NCBI RefSeq assembly: GCF_030553055.1
Contig: NZ_CP130713.1
Location: 6,138,001 to 6,202,000, forward strand
Direction: 5' to 3'
Length of the DNA stretch: 64,000 nt
Source of the DNA: Streptomyces sp. XD-27
Lineage (GTDB): Bacteria; Actinomycetota; Actinomycetes; Streptomycetales; Streptomycetaceae
Part shown: positions 43,736 to 54,368 of the stretch, one piece after another
Position numbering within the stretch: position 1 is the first letter of the stretch
Layout of the letters: the number at the start of each line of letters is the position of its first letter
Position numbers and translations under genes: made by a program
Notes under the pieces: generated by a model
Seen by the model: the letters and a program-made list of their open reading frames with translations, nothing else
What the model was told of the DNA's origin: nothing
Databases searched by the model: none

Positions 43736-44737
43736 ATGGCGAAAGACCTCACCGGCCGCCACTTCCTCAAGGAGCTGGACTTCACCGCCGACGAGTTCAG
43801 TCGCCTGGTCGAGCTGGCGGCTGAGCTCAAGGCCGCCAAGCGCGCGGGCGCCGAGGCGCGGCGGCTGACCGGCAAGAACATTGCACTGGTCTTCGAGAAG
43901 ACCTCCACCCGCACCCGCTGCGCCTTCGAGGTCGCGGCGGCCGACCAAGGGGCCTCGACGACCTATCTCGACCCTGCCGGATCGCAGATCGGACACAAGG
44001 AGTCGGTCAAGGACACCGCCCGTGTCCTTGGCCGGATGTTCGACGCGATCGAGTACCGCGGTCATGGCCAGGGTGTCGTCGAGGAGCTGGCCGCACACGC
44101 CGGGGTCCCGGTCTACAACGGCCTCACCGACGAGTGGCACCCCACCCAGATGCTCGCCGACGTCCTGACCATGACGGAGTTCTGCGACAAGCCGCTCAAC
44201 CGGATGGCGTACGCCTACCTCGGGGACGCCCGGTACAACATGGGCAACTCCTACCTGGTCACCGGGGCGCTCCTGGGGATGGACGTGCGGATCGTGGCGC
44301 CGCGCCTGCTGTGGCCGGACCAGACGATCGTGGCGGTGGCGCGCGAGCTGGCCAAGTCCTCGGGCGCCACCGTCAGCCTCACCGAAGACGTGTCCGAGGG
44401 CGTGCGCGGCGCCGACTTCGTCGCCACCGACGTGTGGGTGTCCATGGGGGAGCCGAAGTCGGTGTGGGACGAGCGGATCGGCCTGCTCGGTCCGTATGCG
44501 GTCACGATGGACGTGCTGCGCGCCACCGGCAACCCGGACGTGCGGTTCCTGCACTGCCTGCCCGCCTTCCACGACCTGGGCACGGACGTCGGCCGGGAGA
44601 TCTACGAGCGGCACGGGCTGACCGAGCTGGAGGTCAGCGACGAGGTCTTCGAGTCCGAGCACTCGGTCGTCTTCGACGAGGCGGAGAACCGGATGCACAC
44701 GATCAAGGCGGTGCTGGTGGCCACGCTGGCCGCGTAG
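43736..44737 (+). CDS. argF: Ornithine carbamoyltransferase
   Basis: A 333-residue OTCase. The carbamoyl phosphate motif is [17 protein letters not shown] (about residue 58), the ornithine-binding motif is HCLPAFHD (about 270), and [15 protein letters not shown] is also present. It interconverts ornithine plus carbamoyl phosphate with citrulline plus phosphate. Its place behind arginine deiminase suggests the catabolic role (ArcB-like), but the protein could serve biosynthesis. Start ATG follows CCTAGGAGCCACGCC. Confidence 0.93.
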
Positions 44738-44801
44738 GCCGTGGCGGGGGGCTCCAGTCGGAGGGGGCCCGGCAGGGGCGATCGACACCTATCGCGTTCC
44801 C

Positions 44802-44829
44802 GTGACGACAGTCACGCATCGGTGATAAC
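44802..44829 (+). promoter_or_regulatory. Candidate PaaX operator/promoter A (enoyl-CoA hydratase operon)
   Basis: GTGACGACAGTCAC (44802-44815) is a dyad GTGAC-N4-GTCAC. Nine bases after its thirteenth base comes GATAAC (44824-44829), a -10-like box. The same GTGACGACAGTCA-N9-GATAA occurs at 51248-51275 before the acyl-CoA dehydrogenase gene. The shared arrangement strongly suggests a common regulator. Confidence 0.7.
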
Positions 44830-44891
44830 TTCTCCAGTACGGGAACCAGCCGTCCGCCCGCCCAGCCACCGGCTGAAGGAGGCCGTGCTCC

Positions 44892-45719
44892 ATGAGTCCC
44901 TTTACCGGATCCGCGTCCCGGACCGAGCGGTGGCGCCACCTGCGCCTCACCCTCGACGCCGGGGTCGCCACCGTCACCCTCGCCCGCCCCGAGAAGCTCA
45001 ACGCACTCACCTTCGGCGCCTACGCCGACCTGCGCGACCTGCTCGCCGAACTCTCCCGCGAGCGCTCCGTACGCGCCCTGGTGCTCGGCGGCGACGGCCG
45101 CGGCTTCTGCTCCGGCGGCGACGTCGACGAGATCATCGGCGCCACCCTCGCCATGGACACCGGGGCGCTCCTGGACTTCAACCGCATGACCGGGCAGGTC
45201 GTCCGGCAGTTGCGGGAATGCCCCTTCCCCGTGGTCGCGGCGGTGCACGGCGTCGCCGCCGGCGCCGGGGCCGTCCTCGCCCTCGCCGCCGACTTCCGCG
45301 TCGCCGACCCCACCGCGCGTTTCGCGTTCCTCTTCACCAAGGTCGGGCTGTCCGGCGGGGACATGGGCGCCGCGTATCTGCTGCCGCGCGTCGTCGGACT
45401 CGGGCACGCCACCCGGCTGCTGATGCTCGGCGAACCGGTGGCCGCGCCCGAGGCCGAACGGATCGGGCTGATCAGCCAGGTGGCCGACGAAGGCCAGGCG
45501 GGGCAGGCGGCCGCGGCGCTCGCCCGCCGCCTCGCCGAGGGACCCGCCCTCGCCTACGCCCAGACCAAGGCGCTGCTCACCGCCGAACTCGACATGCCGC
45601 TGGCCGCCTCCGTCGAACTCGACGCCGCCACCCAGGCCCTGCTGATGAACAGCGCCGACTACGCCGAGTTCCACGCGGCGTTCACCACGCGGCGCCCGCC
45701 GAAATGGCAGGGGCGCTAG
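44892..45719 (+). CDS. Enoyl-CoA hydratase/isomerase family protein
   Basis: A 275-residue crotonase-fold protein with RPEKLNALTFGAYADL, the oxyanion-hole segment GRGFCSGGDVDEII and AVHGVAAGAGAVLALAADFRVADPTARFAFLFTKVGLSGGDMGAAYLLPR. It likely hydrates an enoyl-CoA formed during aromatic ring breakdown. It is the first gene of an operon with the monooxygenase/reductase fusion 2 bp downstream, behind AAGGAGG and the shared operator at 44802. Confidence 0.9.
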   Translation: MSPFTGSASRTERWRHLRLTLDAGVATVTLARPEKLNALTFGAYADLRDLLAELSRERSVRALVLGGDGRGFCSGGDVDEIIGATLAMDTGALLDFNRMTGQVVRQLRECPFPVVAAVHGVAAGAGAVLALAADFRVADPTARFAFLFTKVGLSGGDMGAAYLLPRVVGLGHATRLLMLGEPVAAPEAERIGLISQVADEGQAGQAAAALARRLAEGPALAYAQTKALLTAELDMPLAASVELDAATQALLMNSADYAEFHAAFTTRRPPKWQGR

Positions 45720-45721
45720 CC

Positions 45722-48034
45722 ATGGCGGCGGCGGGGACACCCGCCGGGGCCGCGGCGACGGCCCGCCGGGTGGCCGTCGTCGGCGGCGGCCCCGGCGGCC
45801 TCTACGCGGCGGCGCTCCTCAAACGCCTCGATCCCCGGCGGGAGGTCACCGTCTGGGAGCGCAACGCCCCCGACGACACCTTCGGCTTCGGCGTGGTCCT
45901 GTCCGACGAGACCCTCGGCGGCATCGAACACGCCGACCCCGTGGTCTACGCGGCGCTGCGCGCCGAGTTCGTCCGCTGGGACGCCATCGACGTGGTCCGC
46001 GGCGGCCGGGTGCTCAGCTCCGGCGGCCACGGCTTCGCGGCGCTCGGCCGCCGCCGGCTGCTGGCGCTGCTGCACGACCGCTGCCGCGCGCTCGGCGTCC
46101 GGCTGCGCTTCCGCGCCCCGGCCCCGCCCGCCGCCGAGCTCGCCCGCACCCACGACCTGGTGATCGCCGCCGACGGGGTGCACAGCGCCACCCGCGAGAC
46201 CCACGCCGACGTCTTCCGCCCCCACCTGACCACCCACCGCTGCCGCTACATCTGGCTGGCCGCCGACGTCGCCTTCGACGCCTTCCGCTTCGAGATCGCC
46301 GAGACCGAGCACGGCGTGGCGCAGTTGCACGGATACCCGTACGGGCCGGACGCCAGCACCGTCATCGTCGAGATGCGCGAAGACGTCTGGCGCCGCGCCG
46401 GGTTCGACCGCTGCGGCGAGCGCGCCTCCATCGAACGGTGCGCGCAACTCTTCGCCCCGGCGCTCGACGGCCGCCCGCTGCGCGGCAACCACTCGCAGTG
46501 GACCGCCTTCCGCACCGTCGTCAACGACCGCTGGTCACACGGGAACACCGTGCTGCTCGGCGACGCCGCGCACACCGCCCACTTCTCCATCGGCTCCGGC
46601 ACCAAGCTCGCGGTCGAGGACGCCCTCGCCCTCGCCGCCTGCCTCACCGAGCAGCCGACCGTACCCGACGCGCTCGCGGCGTACGAGGCCGAACGCCGCC
46701 CCGTGGTGGAGTCCACCCAGCGCGCGGCCGCGGCCAGCCTGCGCTGGTTCGAGGACCTGGCCCGCTACCTGCCGCAGCCGCCGCGCCAGTTCGCGTTCAA
46801 CCTGCTCACCCGCAGCCGCCGCGTCACCCACGACAACCTGCGGCTGCGCGACCCCGCGTTCGTCTCGGCGGTCGAGCGCGAGGCGGCCGTGGCCCCCGGC
46901 ACGCCCCCCATGTTCACGCCCTTCCGGCTGCGCGGCCTCACCCTGCGCAACCGCGTCGTGGTGTCCCCGATGGACATGTACTCCGCGGTCGACGGCACCC
47001 CCGGCGACTTCCACCTCGTCCACCTCGGCTCCCGGGCGCTCGGCGGCGCCGGACTGGTCATGACCGAGATGGTGTGCGTCAGCCCGCGCGGCCGCATCAC
47101 CCCCGGTTGTGCGGGGCTGTACGCGCCGGAACACGAGGCGGCCTGGCGCCGCGTGGTGGACTTCTGCCACGACCGGTCGCCGGGCGCGGCGGTCGGCGTG
47201 CAGCTCGGCCACTCCGGACGCAAGGGCTCCACCCGGCCGATGTGGGAGGGCATCGACGACCCGCTCCCGTCCGGCAACTGGCCGCTGGTGGCGTCGTCGC
47301 CGCTGCCGTACCGGCCGGGCGTCAGCCAGATCCCGCAGGCCCTGGACGCGGCGGGACTGGCCGCGATCCGCGAGGAGTTCGCGGCCGCCGCCCGCCGTGC
47401 CGCGCGTGCCGGATTCGACCTCCTCGAACTCCACTGCGCCCACGGGTATCTGCTCTCCGGCTTCCTGTCGCCGCTGACGAACCGCCGCACCGACGCCTAC
47501 GGCGGCTCCCTCACCGCGCGACTGCGCTACCCGCTGGAGGTCTTCGACGCGGTACGGGCCGCCTGGCCCGAGGACCGGCCGATGACGGTGCGCATATCGG
47601 CCACCGACTGGGCGCCGGGCGGCACCACGGCCGACGACGCGGTCGCCATGGCCGCGGCGTTCGCCGCCCACGGCGCCGACGCCATCGACGTGTCCACCGG
47701 CCAGGTCGTGCCCGACGAGCGCCCCGAGTACGGCCGCTCGTACCAGACCCCGTACGCCGACCGCATCCGCAACGAGCTCGGTGTCCCCGTCATCGCGGTC
47801 GGCGCGATCTCGTCATGGGACGACGTGAACTCGCTGGTGTTGGCGGGGCGCGCGGACCTGTGCGCACTGGCCCGGCCGCACCTGTACGACCCGCACTGGA
47901 CGCTGCACGCCGCGGCGGAGCAGGGGTACGCCGGGCCCGGTGCGCCCTGGCCCCTCCCGTACCAGGCGGGCAGCCGCCGCCCGCCGACGGGCCGCACGGA
48001 CGCCCCGCGGCCGCGGCTGTCCCTGGAGGTCTGA
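45722..48034 (+). CDS. Bifunctional FAD monooxygenase / OYE-type reductase (2-aminobenzoyl-CoA monooxygenase/reductase-like)
   Basis: A 770-residue fusion. Residues about 15-385 are a PHBH-type flavin monooxygenase with VAVVGGGPGGLYAAALLKR, a DG motif in VIAADGVHSATR and GDAAHTAHFSIGSG. Residues about 400-750 are an old-yellow-enzyme reductase with TPFRLRGLTLRNRVVVSPM, LHCAHGYLLSGFLSPLTNRRTDAYGGS and IAVGAISSWDDV. This architecture matches 2-aminobenzoyl-CoA monooxygenase/reductase of aerobic anthranilate catabolism; databases often call it salicylyl-CoA 5-hydroxylase. It hydroxylates then reduces the CoA-activated ring, removing aromaticity. It is cotranscribed with the enoyl-CoA hydratase. 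Confidence 0.88.
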   Translation: MAAAGTPAGAAATARRVAVVGGGPGGLYAAALLKRLDPRREVTVWERNAPDDTFGFGVVLSDETLGGIEHADPVVYAALRAEFVRWDAIDVVRGGRVLSSGGHGFAALGRRRLLALLHDRCRALGVRLRFRAPAPPAAELARTHDLVIAADGVHSATRETHADVFRPHLTTHRCRYIWLAADVAFDAFRFEIAETEHGVAQLHGYPYGPDASTVIVEMREDVWRRAGFDRCGERASIERCAQLFAPALDGRPLRGNHSQWTAFRTVVNDRWSHGNTVLLGDAAHTAHFSIGSGTKLAVEDALALAACLTEQPTVPDALAAYEAERRPVVESTQRAAAASLRWFEDLARYLPQPPRQFAFNLLTRSRRVTHDNLRLRDPAFVSAVEREAAVAPGTPPMFTPFRLRGLTLRNRVVVSPMDMYSAVDGTPGDFHLVHLGSRALGGAGLVMTEMVCVSPRGRITPGCAGLYAPEHEAAWRRVVDFCHDRSPGAAVGVQLGHSGRKGSTRPMWEGIDDPLPSGNWPLVASSPLPYRPGVSQIPQALDAAGLAAIREEFAAAARRAARAGFDLLELHCAHGYLLSGFLSPLTNRRTDAYGGSLTARLRYPLEVFDAVRAAWPEDRPMTVRISATDWAPGGTTADDAVAMAAAFAAHGADAIDVSTGQVVPDERPEYGRSYQTPYADRIRNELGVPVIAVGAISSWDDVNSLVLAGRADLCALARPHLYDPHWTLHAAAEQGYAGPGAPWPLPYQAGSRRPPTGRTDAPRPRLSLEV

Positions 48035-48038
48035 ACCC

Positions 48039-48054
48039 GGCCGGACTTCCGGCC
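48039..48054 (+). terminator. Small hairpin after the monooxygenase gene
   Basis: GGCCGGA-CT-TCCGGCC, a 7-bp dyad 5 bp after the stop codon. The loop is short and the structure modest, so this is a weak terminator call. Confidence 0.35.
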
Positions 48055-48125
48055 TCCACCGCCCCGCCACTAGTAGTCTCGTCCACGTAACGAGCAGTGA
48101 GCCTCACGGGGGGAATCGGACACCC

Positions 48126-48713
48126 ATGCCCAAGTTTCGCCGTGCCGCGGCCTGGTTCATCGACTTCGCACTGGTGGTCGCCGCGGCCTCGGCGCTGGCC
48201 GTGCTGACCTTCCACCGGATATCGGGGCTCGTCACCGACGTGCCCGAACTGGCCTCCAGGGGCGCCTTCGACCTGTTGACCTCGCGCGGGGACGTCGTCG
48301 ACGCCTCAGAGAAGCTCGGACTGTCGCTGTGGGACAAGGCGGTGCTGTACGTCGAGCAGGCCTTCGGCGCGCTGGTCATCGCCACGTTCCTCTACCAGTG
48401 GGGCTGCCTCGCCCTCGTCGGGCGCACCGTCGGCAAGGCGCTGCTCGGGCTGAAGGTCGCCCCGAGCACCGCGCGGCGGGCCGCCCTGCGGGCCGCCGTC
48501 ACCACCATCGCCGACGTCGCCGTGTACGCCGTGGCCTGCGTGCTGCTGGTCGAGGGGCATGTGGTGCTGTCGGTGCTCGTGTGGGCGGTGGCCGTCGGGC
48601 TCTTCTTCCTCAACGCGCTGCCGGTCCTCTCACGCAGCCGACGGTCCCTCGCCGACCGGGTGGCCGGGACCACCGTGACCGGGCTCGGGATCGGCGCGCC
48701 CGGCTCCATGTAG
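48126..48713 (+). CDS. RDD family membrane protein
   Basis: A 195-residue RDD-domain protein. It starts RRAAAWFIDFALVVAAASALAVL, where R, D and D mark the family, with about four TM segments and VGRTVGKALLGLKVAPS in the middle. RDD proteins are often annotated as transporters, but their functions are mostly unknown. It sits inside the aromatic catabolic island, yet has its own leader and an 84-bp tail overlap with the opposite paaX gene, so it may be unrelated to the pathway. Confidence 0.85.
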   Translation: MPKFRRAAAWFIDFALVVAAASALAVLTFHRISGLVTDVPELASRGAFDLLTSRGDVVDASEKLGLSLWDKAVLYVEQAFGALVIATFLYQWGCLALVGRTVGKALLGLKVAPSTARRAALRAAVTTIADVAVYAVACVLLVEGHVVLSVLVWAVAVGLFFLNALPVLSRSRRSLADRVAGTTVTGLGIGAPGSM

Positions 48714-49532
48714 CCGGCCCGCGACGTACTCCGCCCCGAGGTCCCGCAGGCGCTCGTGCAGGGCACCGAAGACATGGGCGGCGCGGGCGCCGGGCCAGTC
48801 GGGTGGGAGCAGGGCGGGCGGCAGGCCCGGGTCGGCGTACGGCAGGTGGCGCCAGGAGTCCAGGGCCAGCAGATAGTCGCGGTACGCGTCCTCGGGGGCG
48901 CCGGCCCGCCGCCGCGACCAGCGTCGCAGCACCGGTTCGTGCGCGTCGAGGAACGCGTGGTGGAGCGCCGCCAGCGCGTCCAGGTCCCACCAGCGGCGCA
49001 CCGCGTCGGCGGTCGGTTCGAACCCGGCGTGCCGGCCGCGGAAGAGGTCCACGTACGTGGCGAGTTCGAGCCGCTCCAGGGTGTGCCGGGTCTCCTCGTA
49101 GAGGTGGTCGGGGGCGATCCACACCCCCGGCGCGGCCGTTCCGAAGCCCAGCCGGGCCAGCCGGGAGCGCAGCAGGTGGCGCTTGTGCCGCTCCTGCTCG
49201 GGCACCGAGAACACCGCCAGCAGCCAGCCGTCCCGGGACCGGGCCGAGGCGCGGCCGTAGACGCGCCGGTCGCCGTCGTCCAGCAGCTGTCGCGCGTCGG
49301 CGGACAGCGCGTACCCGGCGGCGCCGTCCGTCGTACGGTCCGGCACCAGCAGCCCGCGCCGCTTGAGCCGGGAGACCGCGGAGCGCACCGACGGCGGGTC
49401 GACGCCGACCGCGCCCAGCAGCCGGATCAGGGCGGCCACGGGCACCGGGCCCGCGGGGCGGTCCGCCGTACCGCGGCCGTACGCGCCGTAGAACGTCACG
49501 ATCAGGGAGCGGGGAGCGTGGTGATCACTCAC
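48630..49532 (-). CDS. PaaX-family transcriptional repressor
   Basis: A 300-residue PaaX-type regulator. The N-terminal winged helix (about residues 8-75, SLIVTFYGAYGRG..VDPPSVRSAVSRLKRRGLLVPDR) is followed by the PaaX-like domains with WLLAVFSVPEQERHKRHLLRSRLARLGFGTAAPGVWIAP. PaaX proteins bind aryl-CoA thioesters and leave DNA, inducing the pathway. GTG 49532 lies 18 bp after the CoA ligase gene, so it is autoregulated through the ligase promoter. Its 3' end overlaps the convergent RDD gene by 84 bp. Confidence 0.9.
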   Translation of the reverse strand: MSDHHAPRSLIVTFYGAYGRGTADRPAGPVPVAALIRLLGAVGVDPPSVRSAVSRLKRRGLLVPDRTTDGAAGYALSADARQLLDDGDRRVYGRASARSRDGWLLAVFSVPEQERHKRHLLRSRLARLGFGTAAPGVWIAPDHLYEETRHTLERLELATYVDLFRGRHAGFEPTADAVRRWWDLDALAALHHAFLDAHEPVLRRWSRRRAGAPEDAYRDYLLALDSWRHLPYADPGLPPALLPPDWPGARAAHVFGALHERLRDLGAEYVAGRLHGAGRADPEPGHGGPGHPVGEGPSAA

Positions 49533-49550
49533 GCGCTTACTGTAGAGCGC

Positions 49551-51179
49551 CTACCGGGGCGCGCCCTCGGCGCCGTCGCGCAGGCGGTAGCGCTGGAGCT
49601 TGCCGGTCGGGGTGCGCGGGAGCGCGTCCAGGAAGACGACGTCGCGCGGGCACTTGTACGGGGCCAGCTCCGCCTTGGCGAACCGCCGCAGCGCCTGCGC
49701 CGTCTCCTCGTTCCGCGGCACCCCCGGGCGCAGTACGACGTGGGCGACGACGGCCATGCCGCGCTCGCTGTCCGGACGTCCGGTGACCGCGACCTCCTCC
49801 ACGTGCGGGTGGCGCAGCAGCGCGTCCTCGACCTCCGGGCCCGCGATGTTGTACCCCGCTGAGATGATCATGTCGTCGGCGCGAGCCACATAGCGGAAGT
49901 AGCCATCCGGATCGCGGATATAGGTGTCGCCGGTCAGGTTCCAGCCGTCGCGTACGTAGTCGCGCTGCCGATCGTCCGCCAGATAGCGGCAGCCGGTCGG
50001 CCCGCGCACGGCCAGCAGCCCCGGCTCGCCGTCCGGGACCGGCCGGCCGTCGGCGTCCACCACCCGCGCCTGGTAGCCGGGCACCGGGATCCCGGTGGTG
50101 CCGGGCCGGATCGCGTCGTCGGCAGCGGAGATGAAGATGTGCAGCAGCTCGGTGGCGCCGATACCGTTGATGATGCGCAGGCCGGTCGCCGCGTACCAGT
50201 CGTGCCAGACCGCGGCGGGCAGGTTCTCCCCGGCCGAGACGCAGCGGCGCAGGCTGGAGGTGTCGTACCCGTGCAAGCGCCCGAGCATCGCCCGGTACGC
50301 GGTCGGCGCCGTGAACAGCACCGAGATCCGGTGGTGCTGGACGTCGTCCAGCAGCCGCGCGGGCCCGCCCCAGTCGGTCAGCAGCGCGGCGGCGCCCGCC
50401 CGCAGCGGGAACACCACGAGCCCGCCGAGCCCGAAGGTGAAGCCGAGTGGCGGGCTGCCGGCGAACACGTCGTCCTGGCGCGGCCGCAGGACCCGCGCGG
50501 AGAAGGTGTCGGCTATTGCGAGCACGTCGCGGTGGAAGTGCATGCAGCCCTTGGGCCGCCCGGTGGTGCCGGAGGTGAAGGCGATCAGCGCCACGTCGTC
50601 GGCGGAGGTGGCCACCGCCGGGTACGGGCTGGGGTGGGCCGCCGCGCGGCGCAGCAGGTCGTCGGCGGACCGGCCGCCGAACACCGTCACCCGCAGCCCC
50701 CGTACCTCGGCTTTCTCGATGTCCTCCAGAGACCGGGCGTCGCACAGCGCGTGACTCACGCGCGCGATCCGGCAGATCGTCGCCAGCTCCGCCGCGCGAT
50801 GGGAGGCCAGCACGGTGACCGCTACGGCGCCCGCCTTCATCACGGCCAGCCAGCACGCCGCCAGCCACGGGGTGGTGGGGCCGCGCAGCAGCACCCGGTT
50901 GCCGGGCACCACGCCCAGGTCGGCGGTGAGGGTGTGCGCGATGCGGTCCACGTGCCGTTGCAGCTCGCCGTACGTCCAGCTCTCGCCGCCTGCGCCGCGC
51001 AGCGCGACCCGGTGCGGGCCCAGCCGGTCGGCGGTGCCGTCCAGCAGCTCGGCACCGCAGTTGATCCGGTCGGGATAGGCGGGGGCGGGCGGATCGTGCA
51101 GCAGCCGCGGCCACTGGCCGGGGGGCGGCAGGTGGTCGCGGGCGAAGGTGTCGATGTGCGCCGAGGGCTTGAGCTCCAT
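49551..51179 (-). CDS. AMP-dependent aryl-CoA ligase (2-aminobenzoate-CoA ligase-like)
   Basis: A 542-residue acyl-adenylate-forming ligase of the benzoate-CoA ligase group. Motifs are FTSGTTGRPKGCMH (P-loop), NGIGATELLHIF, GWNLTGDTYIRD and the C-terminal PRTPTGKLQRYRLR with catalytic Lys. It activates an aromatic acid, probably 2-aminobenzoate, with ATP and CoA, in line with the neighbouring monooxygenase/reductase fusion. It is transcribed divergently from the acyl-CoA dehydrogenase gene and is first in an operon with paaX. Confidence 0.9.
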   Translation of the reverse strand: MELKPSAHIDTFARDHLPPPGQWPRLLHDPPAPAYPDRINCGAELLDGTADRLGPHRVALRGAGGESWTYGELQRHVDRIAHTLTADLGVVPGNRVLLRGPTTPWLAACWLAVMKAGAVAVTVLASHRAAELATICRIARVSHALCDARSLEDIEKAEVRGLRVTVFGGRSADDLLRRAAAHPSPYPAVATSADDVALIAFTSGTTGRPKGCMHFHRDVLAIADTFSARVLRPRQDDVFAGSPPLGFTFGLGGLVVFPLRAGAAALLTDWGGPARLLDDVQHHRISVLFTAPTAYRAMLGRLHGYDTSSLRRCVSAGENLPAAVWHDWYAATGLRIINGIGATELLHIFISAADDAIRPGTTGIPVPGYQARVVDADGRPVPDGEPGLLAVRGPTGCRYLADDRQRDYVRDGWNLTGDTYIRDPDGYFRYVARADDMIISAGYNIAGPEVEDALLRHPHVEEVAVTGRPDSERGMAVVAHVVLRPGVPRNEETAQALRRFAKAELAPYKCPRDVVFLDALPRTPTGKLQRYRLRDGAEGAPR

Positions 51180-51233
51180 CGCGTCACGCGCCTCCCATGC
51201 CTGGCCGTATGCCTGCCCTGAAGTCGCTTCTTC

Positions 51234-51275
51234 AGCGTAACGTGTTGGTGACGACAGTCAACAGAGCGCGATAAA
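51234..51275. promoter_or_regulatory. Candidate PaaX operator/promoter B with divergent promoters
   Basis: On plus, GTGACGACAGTCA (51248-51260), nine bases, then GATAAA (51270-51275), exactly as in site A at 44802. On minus, TTGACT (51261-51256), a 16-bp spacer and TACGCT (51239-51234) form a plausible promoter for the CoA ligase gene. One operator would therefore overlap both promoters. Confidence 0.7.
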
Positions 51276-51293
51276 GCGACAGGGAGGCTTCCG

Positions 51294-52433
51294 ATGCCGG
51301 CCTTCGGACTGGATCCGGAACAGCTCAGGTGGCGCGCGGAGTTGCGCGCGCTGGCCGCCGAGCGGCTGCGCCCGCTGGTGGCGGGCGCCCCGCCCGGCCG
51401 GATCAACCGGCCCCTTGTCGCGGCGCTCGGCGAACTCGGCCTGCTGCGGCGGCTGTTCCCGGCGGAGGGACCGGTGCGCGCGCTGGACCTGTGCCTGCTA
51501 CGCGAATCGCTGGCCATGGAATGCACGGAGGCCGAGACCGCGCTCGCCCTCCAGGGCCTGGGCGCCTATCCGGTCGTCCTGTCCGGCACCCCGGAGCAGC
51601 GCGACCGCTGGCTGCCCGGGGTACGGGCGGGCCGCGCCGTCACCGCCTTCGCGCTCAGCGAGGAGGCCGCGGGCTCCGACGCCGCCGCACTCACGCTGCG
51701 CGCCGAGCCCGACGGCTCCGGCGGCTGGCGGCTGACCGGCGAGAAGTGCTGGATCTCCAACGCCCCGGAGGCGGACGTGTGCACCGTCTTCGCGCGCACC
51801 ACCGACGGCGCCGGCGCGCGCGGGGTCACCGCCTTCCTCGTCCCGGCCGACCGGCCCGGACTCGGCGGCGAGCCCCTGGAGATGCTCAGCCCGCACCCCA
51901 TCGGCCGGTACACCTTCGACGCGGTCCCGGTCACCCGCGCCGACGTCATCGGCCCGGTCGACGGGGGCTTCCGCGTCGCCATGCGCACCCTCAACCTGCT
52001 GCGGCCCAGCGTCGGCGCGTTCGCCGTCGGCATGGCACAGGCGGCGCTGGACGCGGCACTCGCCCACGCGGGCGAACGCACCGCCTTCGGCGGGCCGTTG
52101 AAGGACCTCCAGGCCGTGTCCCACCAACTCGCCGAGATGGCCACCCGCACCGAGGCGGCCCGGCTGCTGGTCTACGCCGCGGCCGCCGCCTGCGACGCGG
52201 ACGCCCCCGACGTCGCCAAGCGCTCCGCCATGGCCAAGCTGCTCGCCACCGAGACGGCCGGATACGTGGTCGACGCCGCCGTCCAGATCCACGGCGCCCG
52301 CGCCCTGCGCCGCGGCCACCTGCTCGAACACCTCTACCGCGAGGTGCGCGCGCCGCGGATCTACGAGGGCGCCACGGAGGTCCAGCGCACGATCATCGCC
52401 AAGGAGCTGTACCGAGAGGAGCCGCACCGATGA
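51294..52433 (+). CDS. Acyl-CoA dehydrogenase
   Basis: A 379-residue flavin acyl-CoA dehydrogenase with AVTAFALSEEAAGSDAAALTLRAE, GEKCWISNAPEADVCTVFA and the C-terminal QIHGARALRRGHLLEHLYREVRAPRIYEGATEVQRTIIAKEL, in which the Glu of YEGATE is the usual catalytic-base position. In this island it would oxidise a ring-derived cyclohexane- or alkyl-CoA intermediate. GGGAGG precedes ATG 51294. The RidA gene overlaps its stop. Confidence 0.9.
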   Translation: MPAFGLDPEQLRWRAELRALAAERLRPLVAGAPPGRINRPLVAALGELGLLRRLFPAEGPVRALDLCLLRESLAMECTEAETALALQGLGAYPVVLSGTPEQRDRWLPGVRAGRAVTAFALSEEAAGSDAAALTLRAEPDGSGGWRLTGEKCWISNAPEADVCTVFARTTDGAGARGVTAFLVPADRPGLGGEPLEMLSPHPIGRYTFDAVPVTRADVIGPVDGGFRVAMRTLNLLRPSVGAFAVGMAQAALDAALAHAGERTAFGGPLKDLQAVSHQLAEMATRTEAARLLVYAAAAACDADAPDVAKRSAMAKLLATETAGYVVDAAVQIHGARALRRGHLLEHLYREVRAPRIYEGATEVQRTIIAKELYREEPHR

Positions 52434-52828
52434 GTCTGGACCGGCTGAACCCCGCCGGGCTCGCCCCGGCCTCCGGCTTCACCCACGCCGTCACCGCCAC
52501 CGGCGGCCGCCTGGTCTTCCTGGCCGGGCAGACCGCGTTGGACGGTGAGGGAAACGTGGTCGGCACCGGTCTGCCGGAGCAGTTCCGGCAGGCGCTCGGC
52601 AATCTCCTCACCGCCCTGCGCGCCGCCGGAGGTACGCCCGCCGACCTCGCCCGCGTCACCGTGTACACCACGGACGTCGCGGCCTACCGCTCCCGCGCCC
52701 GCGAACTCGGCACGATCTGGCGGGAGCTGGCAGGCCGCGACTACCCGGCGATGGCGGTCATCGGCGCGGTCCGGCTGTGGGACGAGGCGGCGCTGGTCGA
52801 GCTGGACGGGATCGCGGTCCTGCCTTAG
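52430..52828 (+). CDS. RidA-family enamine/imine deaminase
   Basis: A 132-residue RidA/YjgF/UK114 protein: GGRLVFLAGQTALDGEGNVVGTGLPEQFRQALGNLLTALRAAGGTPADLARVTVYTTD. RidA proteins hydrolyse enamine or imine intermediates. In 2-aminobenzoyl-CoA breakdown the de-aromatised product carries an enamine, so a deaminase here makes chemical sense (inference). It overlaps the acyl-CoA dehydrogenase gene by 4 nt and converges on the murA-like gene. Confidence 0.88.
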   Translation: MSLDRLNPAGLAPASGFTHAVTATGGRLVFLAGQTALDGEGNVVGTGLPEQFRQALGNLLTALRAAGGTPADLARVTVYTTDVAAYRSRARELGTIWRELAGRDYPAMAVIGAVRLWDEAALVELDGIAVLP

Positions 52829-52838
52829 TCGCCCCGGC

Positions 52839-54368
52839 TCAGATGTCCCGGAACGTCTCGATCTGCGCGCCGATCGAGTTCAGCCGCTCCGCCAGATCCT
52901 CGTAACCGCGGTTGATGACATACACGTTGCGCAGCACCGACGTGCCCTCGGCCGCCATCATGGCCAGCAGTACCACCACCGCGGGGCGGAGCGCGGGCGG
53001 GCACATCATCTCCGCGCTGCGCCAGCGGGTCGGGCCCTCGACCAGCACCCGGTGCGGGTCGAGGAGCTTGACGCCGGCGCCCAGCCGGTTCAGGTCGGTC
53101 AGGTAGATGGCGCGGTTGTCGTAGACCCAGTCGTGGATCAGCGTCGAACCCTGGGCGGCGGCCGCGATGGCCGCGAAGAACGGCACGTTGTCGATGTTGA
53201 GCCCGGGGAACGGCATCGGGTGGATCTTGTCGAGCGGAGCGCTCAGCTTCGACGGACGGACCGTGAGGTCGATCAGCCGGGTCCGCCCGTTGTCCGCCTT
53301 GTACTCGGCGCTGCGCTCGTGGTCCAGGCCCATCTCCTCCAGGACGGCCAGCTCGATCTCCAGGAACTCCACCGGAACCCGGCGGATCGTCAGCTCCGAC
53401 TCGGTGACCACGGCCGCGGCGAGCAGGCTCATCGCCTCCACCGGGTCCTCCGACGGCGCGTAGTCGACGTCGCGGTCGATCTGCGCGACACCGTGCACGG
53501 TCAGCGTGGTGGTGCCGATGCCGTCGACCCGTACGCCCAACTGCTCCAGGAAGAAGCACAGGTCCTGGACCATGTAGTTGGAGGAGGCGTTGCGGATGAC
53601 CGAGATCCCGTCGTGCCGGGCGGCGGCCAGCAGCGCGTTCTCCGTCACGGTGTCGCCGCGCTCGGTCAGCACGATGGCGCGGGTGGGGGAGACCGTGCGG
53701 TCCACCTGCGCGTGGTACGTGCCGTCGGTGGCGGTGATCTCAAGTCCGAAGTGGCGCAGCGCGGTCATGTGCGGCTGCACGGTGCGGGTGCCCAGGTCGC
53801 AGCCGCCCGCGTACGGGATCTTGAAGCTGTCCATCCGGTGCAGCAGCGGGCCGAGGAACATGATGACGCTGCGGGTCCGCCGGGCCGCCTCGGTGTCCAT
53901 CGCGGCCAGGTCCAGTTCGGCCGGCGGGGTGATCTCCAGGTCGGCGCCGTCGTTGATCCACCGCGTCTTCACGCCGATGCTGCCCAACACCTCCAGAATG
54001 CGGTAGACCTCCTCGATCCGGGCGACCCTGCGCAGCGTCGTACGGCCGGAGTTGAGGAGTGAGGCGCACAGCAGCGCCACGCACGCGTTCTTGCTCGTCT
54101 TGACGTCGATGCTGCCGGAGAGCCGGCGGCCGCCGACCACGCGCAGATGCATCGGGCCCGCGTACCCGAGCGAGACGATCTCGCTGTCCAGGGCCTCTCC
54201 GATGCGGGCGATCATCTCAAGGCTGATGTTCTGGTTACCGCGTTCGATGCGGTTGACCGCGCTCTGACTCGTACCGAGGGCCTCCGCGAGCTGCGACTGC
54301 GTCCAACCACGGTGCTGACGGGCGTCACGGATGAGCTTGCCGATACGTACGAGGTAGTCGTCTGTCAT
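52839..54368 (-). CDS. murA2: XRE-type HTH fused to MurA-like UDP-GlcNAc enolpyruvyl transferase
   Basis: A 509-residue fusion. Residues 8-62 are a Cro/CI-type helix-turn-helix (GWTQSQLAEALGTSQSAVNRIERG). From about residue 72 a complete EPSP-synthase-fold MurA follows, with Lys93 in KTSKNAC, the PEP-binding Cys190 in GGCDLGTRTVQPH, and GLNIDNVPFF and VINRGYEDL. The enzymatic residues look intact, so it may make UDP-GlcNAc-enolpyruvate while also binding DNA. ATG 54368 is immediately preceded on its strand by dyads at 54373-54395. Its partner gene in the chromosome is aconitase. Confidence 0.88.
   Translation of the reverse strand: MTDDYLVRIGKLIRDARQHRGWTQSQLAEALGTSQSAVNRIERGNQNISLEMIARIGEALDSEIVSLGYAGPMHLRVVGGRRLSGSIDVKTSKNACVALLCASLLNSGRTTLRRVARIEEVYRILEVLGSIGVKTRWINDGADLEITPPAELDLAAMDTEAARRTRSVIMFLGPLLHRMDSFKIPYAGGCDLGTRTVQPHMTALRHFGLEITATDGTYHAQVDRTVSPTRAIVLTERGDTVTENALLAAARHDGISVIRNASSNYMVQDLCFFLEQLGVRVDGIGTTTLTVHGVAQIDRDVDYAPSEDPVEAMSLLAAAVVTESELTIRRVPVEFLEIELAVLEEMGLDHERSAEYKADNGRTRLIDLTVRPSKLSAPLDKIHPMPFPGLNIDNVPFFAAIAAAAQGSTLIHDWVYDNRAIYLTDLNRLGAGVKLLDPHRVLVEGPTRWRSAEMMCPPALRPAVVVLLAMMAAEGTSVLRNVYVINRGYEDLAERLNSIGAQIETFRDI

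Follow-up and report, generated by a model that had tools for sequence, protein, structure and literature searches.

Two described regulators of the PaaX family provide the background for a pair of matching DNA elements that we analysed in a 64,000-nucleotide stretch of Streptomyces sp. XD-27 (contig NZ_CP130713.1, positions 6,138,001 to 6,202,000; this whole stretch is called the window, and positions are counted within it). MeqR2 reportedly binds TGACGNNCGTcA and is freed by anthraniloyl-coenzyme A (anthraniloyl-CoA), its operator being said to be a 12-bp box, TGACGNNCGTCA. From gene order, we take ARUE_RS22915 of Arthrobacter sp. Rue61a plasmid pAL1 to be this protein. PMC3534580 reports measured anthranilate-CoA ligase activity for the pAL1 ligase, detection of anthraniloyl-CoA in cells grown on anthranilate, and participation of two PaaX-related plasmid regulators in the control of quinaldine degradation; it also cites the monooxygenase/reductase of Azoarcus evansii as a reference enzyme. 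For the phenylacetate regulator PaaX of E. coli, PMC9493321 gives a long-spaced repeat, TGATTC(N27)GAATCA.

We propose, with a probability of roughly 0.78, that the two elements of the window, one before an enoyl-CoA hydratase gene and one between divergent aryl-CoA ligase and acyl-CoA dehydrogenase genes, are operators of the linked PaaX-family repressor, which would be a MeqR2-type sensor of anthraniloyl-CoA. The proposal is carried by the sites themselves, their conservation, their overlap with promoters, the gene content of the locus, the relation of both regulator and operator to those of pAL1, and outer arms found at a fixed distance from the core. Once these arms are included, the operator resembles a palindrome of two tiers and 38 bp, TATNNCG-N6-TGACGNNNGTCA-N6-CGNNATA. 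Judged from sequence, the two sites form what appears to be a genuine regulatory pair, strongly conserved and of a kind already known, the new part being the extended operator model.

The two elements, their conservation and their promoters

An earlier reading of the window (the original prediction) had placed GTGACGACAGTCA at 44802-44814 and 51248-51260, each copy followed by nine bases and GATAA (44824-44828 and 51270-51274), and both sets of coordinates were confirmed. The first copy is indeed a complete GTGAC-N4-GTCAC dyad (44802-44815); in the second, GTCAA stands in place of GTCAC, and the divergent TTGACT (minus strand, 51261-51256)-N16-TACGCT (51239-51234) described there was seen as well. 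The nine intervening bases had been called unrelated, which does not hold for all of them, since the last ones are conserved across orthologues (mostly (G/A)GT preceding GATA at the hydratase, CGC at the ligase/dehydrogenase). The features of the locus are as follows.

44790-44827, plus strand: candidate operator E, 38 bp, TATCGCG-N6-TGACGACAGTCA-N6-(G)GTGATA, before the hydratase operon; one mismatch to the 38-bp model; kept in orthologous loci
44802-44815, no strand: inner dyad GTGACGACAGTCAC, whose first six bases, GTGACG, fit a -35
44826-44831, plus strand: -10 TAACTT of the hydratase promoter, after an 18-base spacer
44892-45719, plus strand: enoyl-CoA hydratase gene (NF006107, 384.8 bits, cut-off 330; PF00378)
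45722-48034, plus strand: gene for a bifunctional aryl-CoA monooxygenase/reductase (flavin adenine dinucleotide (FAD) monooxygenase plus old yellow enzyme; NF006101, 1211 bits, cut-off 1078)
48126-48713, plus strand: RDD-family membrane protein gene, its 3' end convergent with that of paaX (84-base overlap)
48630-49532, minus strand: PaaX-family repressor gene, MeqR2 type (Pfam PaaX, PaaX_M, PaaX_C)
49539-49544, minus strand: -10-like hexamer TACAGT of paaX, six bases before the GTG start; possibly a leaderless transcript
49551-51179, minus strand: aryl-CoA ligase gene, anthranilate-CoA ligase type (54% identity over 535 amino acids to pAL1 ARUE_RS22905)
51234-51239, minus strand: -10 TACGCT of the ligase promoter
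51236-51273, plus strand: candidate operator D, 38 bp, between ligase and dehydrogenase genes; two mismatches to the 38-bp model; conserved; right arm CGCGATA at 51267-51273, left arm degenerate (CGTAACG)
51256-51261, minus strand: -35 TTGACT for the ligase, which shares bases with the inner dyad
51294-52433, plus strand: acyl-CoA dehydrogenase gene (PF00441, PF02770, PF02771)
52430-52828, plus strand: RidA-family gene (PF01042), with a 4-base overlap with the end of the dehydrogenase gene

Within the window, GTGACNNNNGTCA has four matches (one site being counted on both strands) against 0.66 expected, and the 13-mer with at most two mismatches has five against 2.05. This excess over shuffles is moderately persuasive; it is the genome and genus data that decide. 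In the 7.55-Mb genome the 26-base pattern RTGACGRNAGTCAMNNNNNNGYGATA gave two exact matches and three at three mismatches, the reverse reading of the first site being a further match at two; besides the two sites, no further regulon member was found in this genome with the 26-base pattern at two or fewer mismatches or the 38-base model at three or fewer. A third GTGAC-N4-GTCA match, GTGACGCCCGTCA, lies at 54316-54328 (minus strand) inside the start of a long minus-strand open reading frame (52839-54368); it is not among the matches of the 38-bp model at up to six mismatches and is probably due to chance.

Across 199 genomes of the genus, the 26-base pattern, scored at no more than one mismatch, occurs in 168 (twice in 155, once in 12 and three times in one), and the same pattern read backwards, which served as control, gave a single match in one genome. 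Forty syntenic loci around paaX were fetched from the upper part of the PaaX match list. With up to two mismatches allowed, a site stands before the hydratase in all 36 valid loci that have the gene and before the ligase in all 38. The hydratase count leaves out L065, which starts inside the hydratase gene and whose row caught another site; its genome, G197, has a hydratase-type site just beyond the fetched slice. Column counts in the orthologue alignments are slightly blurred by misplaced rows (L056 and L065 at the hydratase, L039 and L040 at the ligase). The motif is conserved in relatives before the same two operons, bearing out the claim of one site type before both, and matches away from these operons are rare in the tallies for the strain's own genome, the genus and the phylum.

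The conserved block before the hydratase reads TATCGCG-N5-RTGACGRNAGTCAC-N6-GTGATARCTTCG in the orthologue alignment, and that between ligase and dehydrogenase reads AGCGTA(T/A)CG...GTGACGRCAGTCAACRG-N2-CGCGATA. All 36 valid loci have a hydratase -10 that conforms to TANNNT, mostly as TAACTT or TAGCTT (TARCTT), with GATAA as its start; of the 38 ligase promoters, 36 carry TTGACT-N16-TACGCT without a mismatch. At site D conservation ends after CGCGATA, which mirrors the TATCGCG of the hydratase site at equal distance from the dyad. Upstream of the hydratase lies a reading frame (43736-44737, argF-like by eye) that runs in the same direction and so requires no divergent promoter; for this reason CGCGATA/TATCGCG is better read as an operator arm than as a -10. 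The original prediction had taken GATAA as a -10 shared by hydratase and dehydrogenase, which is not supported, since GATAA is part of a conserved -10 at the hydratase only. The conserved promoter at the second site is, by its sequence, that of the ligase, and the dehydrogenase may still use a weak -10 at CGCGATA.

A -10-like hexamer, TANRRT, precedes the paaX start codon by 4 to 9 bases in 57 of 62 sequences, whether or not a ligase gene is present; of the five exceptions, one is masked sequence. Transcription of paaX therefore probably has a source other than the ligase promoter as well. The earlier view that pathway genes and repressor all stand under one site type is consequently supported for both operons and too strong for paaX.

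The overlap with promoters raises the question of whether each element is chiefly a promoter, its -35 and -10 serving a sigma factor of the housekeeping or an alternative type and its dyad being incidental, a reading that we regard as very improbable. RTGACG-N18-TANNNT at the hydratase and TTGACT-N16-TACGCT at the ligase are conserved, as it would predict; yet high conservation extends to GTCA, the downstream half, and to TATCGCG, the upstream arm, neither of which is a promoter element, the plus-strand GATAA of site D lacks a conserved -10 context, genome matches are few, unlike those of a sigma motif, and in other genera related dyads, with their arms equally spaced, precede further genes of clusters of this kind. 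The rarity of the pattern genome-wide and the conservation of its non-promoter parts led us to reject a sigma-factor motif.

The linked repressor and the pathway it would control

All three PaaX domains of the window repressor (N-terminal PF07848, central PF20803 and C-terminal PF08223) score over cut-off. Against TIGR02277, the equivalog model of phenylacetate PaaX (cut-off 264.55), the window protein reaches 133.1 bits, MeqR2 151.9 and E. coli PaaX 410.9, the last figure being the score of the K-12 protein (in the whole-genome family search E. coli fell below cut-off). The repressor is 42% identical to pAL1 ARUE_RS22915, and its recognition helix, VRSAVSRLKRRG, fits the MeqR2 group (VRSxxSRLKRRG), the corresponding helices being VRSSVSRLKKRG in MeqR2 and VRTALFRLNKEG in E. 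coli PaaX. A tree in which E. coli PaaX has a very long branch and several deep forks are uncertain tentatively groups the window protein with PaaX proteins from clusters of this type. No paa ring-epoxidase gene was found among the seven scanned proteins of 44892-52828. The window regulator resembles MeqR2 rather than phenylacetate PaaX, and the window core TGACGACAGTCA equals the box reported for MeqR2 but for one base. On pAL1 itself, exact TGACGNNCGTCA dyads precede xanthine-dehydrogenase-like genes, the FAD monooxygenase gene next to meqE, and the linked paaX; dyads one base off lie between RidA and FAH genes and in an intergenic region (L184:7756), with two more inside genes.

Beside paaX, an anthranilate-CoA ligase and a 2-aminobenzoyl-CoA monooxygenase/reductase are present by sequence. 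The latter is 62% identical to the pAL1 enzyme; the ligase resembles benzoate-CoA ligase at 338.9 bits, under that family's cut-off of 375.25, and its pAL1 counterpart was identified with the ligase of PMC3534580 through gene order. Gene families, identities to pAL1 and the findings of PMC3534580 together make an aerobic anthraniloyl-CoA (2-aminobenzoyl-CoA) pathway for anthranilate the most likely assignment; an alternative substrate would be salicylate, by way of salicylyl-CoA. On the Rhodococcus qingshengii plasmid pN9T4-1 (L186) the cluster adjoins a tryptophan 2,3-dioxygenase gene and one for an enzyme of the aminotransferase class V fold, possibly a kynureninase, neighbours pointing to tryptophan as the anthranilate source there.

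Matches to PaaX at E<=1e-30 were obtained in 187 of the 199 genus genomes, and sites were found in 167 of these versus 1 of the 12 without a match (Fisher p 2.5e-9, which ignores relatedness). In the exception, G008, the ligase and monooxygenase genes run off contig ends where paaX should lie. At L069 the pathway is gone from the locus and an intact site remains approximately 180 bp before paaX. The linked PaaX-family regulator, already proposed in the original prediction, is the obvious candidate, and its binding to the sites is inferred.

Several findings weigh against this assignment. The presence of sites follows the pathway genes no less closely than it follows paaX: three genomes counted among the 167 (G023, G072 and G075) have pathway and sites without a linked paaX, a 47-53% relative at another place being all that they have, and 14 genomes retain a paaX orthologue that looks intact, with no site at one or fewer mismatches and no pathway in the stretch that was fetched. 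Because both sites overlap promoters, some of their conservation belongs to the promoters. At one base the window core carries A in place of the C of the box reported for MeqR2 (TGACGNNAGTCA).

The first of these findings would suit sites that belong to another regulator encoded elsewhere, with paaX a mere neighbour, which we consider improbable. In many actinobacteria related dyads with arms at the same spacing are found beside PaaX-family genes whose recognition helix is of the same kind, and pAL1 has the dyad as well; two clusters in which the linked PaaX carries an E. coli-like helix, L177 and L178, gave no site at four or fewer mismatches; and the three genomes without a linked paaX do have another PaaX-family protein, the distant relatives L180, L181 and L182, which fall among MeqR2-like PaaX in the tree and may have taken over regulation. 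In G072 a reading frame that by eye resembles a GNAT acetyltransferase stands where paaX would be expected, with the monooxygenase and ligase genes on either side (L140, 9700-10700).

Twenty genomes have a PaaX match and no site. Four (G055, G096, G150 and G165) hold only a paralogue and more distant relatives; in G082 paaX is in two pieces, apparently frameshifted, and G076 has ligase, paaX and a degraded site, decayed sites possibly remaining in these two; the others are the 14 lone-paaX genomes (L071, L108, L110-L113 and L115-L122). The fetched stretch contains argF in 12 of the 14, is without it in G014, and in G084 comes from a contig of only 3.4 kb. Six of the 14 have a monooxygenase/reductase of 64-67% identity elsewhere and eight have no full-length one. 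Most of the 12 lone copies examined retain the recognition helix; it is lost in L112 (VRSAVSALEQRG) and altered in L113, as expected if targets were lost. A target search with the 38-bp model at up to three mismatches, covering 44 genomes, gave, among these 14, nothing better than 3-mismatch matches in G014, G062, G068, G084 (a paralogous RidA site), G181, G183 and G187, and none in G092, G094, G125, G130, G176, G177 and G192. Nearly the same 3-mismatch match (TATGCCGGACTCTCGACGCCTGTCAT...) occurs at G068:C1:3297435-3297472, G128:C2:8632168-8632205 and G183:C27:8054-8091, and could be conserved coding sequence or a further target.

L123-L134 represent a second, divergent cluster of anthraniloyl-CoA type (monooxygenase/reductase approximately 65%, PaaX approximately 50% where present), which occurs in some genomes of the genus. 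It has an operator variant, TGACGNNNGTGA-N6-CGAGAYA, that by our reading precedes RidA in 8 of 11 loci; a single base differs in L129, and the deviation is larger in L130 and L134.

If the linked repressor does act at these sites, a dimer, or two cooperating dimers, would occupy each 38-bp site when substrate is absent. The -35 elements of the hydratase-monooxygenase/reductase and ligase promoters would then be covered, and the bound protein would extend to the region where the dehydrogenase-RidA operon starts. Anthranilate, imported or made from tryptophan, would be converted by basal ligase to anthraniloyl-CoA, which would free the repressor, so that activation, ring attack and later steps switch on together. 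Repression, inducer and occupancy by one dimer or two are proposed here from the arrangement of sites and genes.

An extended operator model

The 38-bp model was drawn from sites in the loci on which it was scored, namely 80 loci with MeqR2-like genes (the best 80 of 234 relatives); other arm distances and whole-genome tallies served as controls. Within 300 bp before pathway genes, 77 dyads with at most one mismatch were found in 46 of the 80 loci, the reversed pattern giving 4 matches and the remaining 34 loci no such dyad. A CGNNATA arm (at most one mismatch) lies six bases outside the dyad 76 times, versus five times or fewer at each of 18 other offsets; after removal of near-duplicates, 54 promoter dyads of other actinobacteria carry 55 arms at offset 6 and no more than five at any other. 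The full model with spacing 6 yields 66 sites at three or fewer mismatches, in 52 loci, none inside a matched gene, and spacings 2-5 and 7-12 yield 0 or 1 each; the other 28 loci, which have no such site, count against the model, as do the four promoter dyads of pAL1, which fit it with 4, 4, 4 and 6 mismatches, near chance. Nineteen of the 20 Amycolatopsis loci have a site at this threshold. Among 396 genomes of the phylum, 19 contain a match at two or fewer mismatches, 11 of them from this genus (12 genus genomes were sampled), with one control match, and 20 simulated 64-kb windows gave nothing below five mismatches, the two sites of the window having one and two.

The arms stand approximately 11 bp beyond the inner half-sites, that is, about one helical turn out on the same face of the DNA, which suggests two dimers side by side or an added contact. 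It may be that actinobacterial MeqR2-type PaaX proteins recognise the 38-bp palindrome, either through two dimers that cooperate or through a single dimer that makes an additional contact with the DNA, possibly in the geometry of the E. coli PaaX repeat (39 bp), and we put this at even odds. That estimate was left unchanged because the poor fit of the pAL1 dyads speaks against a long operator and the Amycolatopsis sites speak for it. The link to the E. coli geometry is speculation, because the letters are not alike and the K-12 repeat pairs printed contain no TGACG core; the K-12 sequence has TGATTC-N27-GAATCG before paaA.

Alternatively, PaaX would bind the 12-bp inner dyad only and the outer arms would be the target of a different protein, such as an activator positioned beside the -35, which strikes us as rather unlikely. 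The better-conserved arm is upstream of the -35 in both window promoters, 25 of the 54 non-redundant sites have one arm and 14 have none, and the near-chance fit of the pAL1 dyads to the armed model also suits this reading; against it, the 15 sites with both arms are symmetric about the dyad and always have spacing 6, and the six Amycolatopsis sites printed keep the arms fully or nearly while the inner dyad is degraded. No earlier description of the 38-bp operator model was found in the open-licence literature, and no priority is claimed.

Relation to known systems

An RDD-family gene overlaps the end of paaX in the window (48126-48713); no relative was found in the 40 syntenic loci (tblastn, E<=1e-20), and it may be lineage-specific. 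The regulatory pair would give most of the sampled genomes of the genus a compact two-site regulon for anthranilate, a product of tryptophan breakdown. It also sharpens the operator model of a repressor family that has been little studied, and yields a candidate pair of sensor and promoter for a possible response to anthraniloyl-CoA.

The expected difference from the E. coli PaaX box was borne out. E. coli PaaX, which serves phenylacetate degradation, shares with the window protein the three-domain family and, by prediction, the role of a repressor of aryl-CoA catabolism, and differs from it in recognition helix, box, inducer (phenylacetyl-CoA) and TIGR02277 score. The 2-aminobenzoate (anthranilate) CoA pathway of Azoarcus evansii would share its chemistry with the predicted pathway of the window. 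Relative to pAL1, the window locus is chromosomal, comes with hydratase and dehydrogenase operons, and differs at the level of regulator sequence and of one core base. In common with MeqR2 and pAL1 it has a regulator of the PaaX family encoded next to genes for an AMP-binding ligase and for a bifunctional monooxygenase/reductase, a near-identical recognition helix, and TGACGNN(C/A)GTCA dyads before genes, one of which on pAL1 overlaps, as we read the sequence, a -35 (TTGACG-N16-TATATA) before the FAD monooxygenase gene next to meqE.

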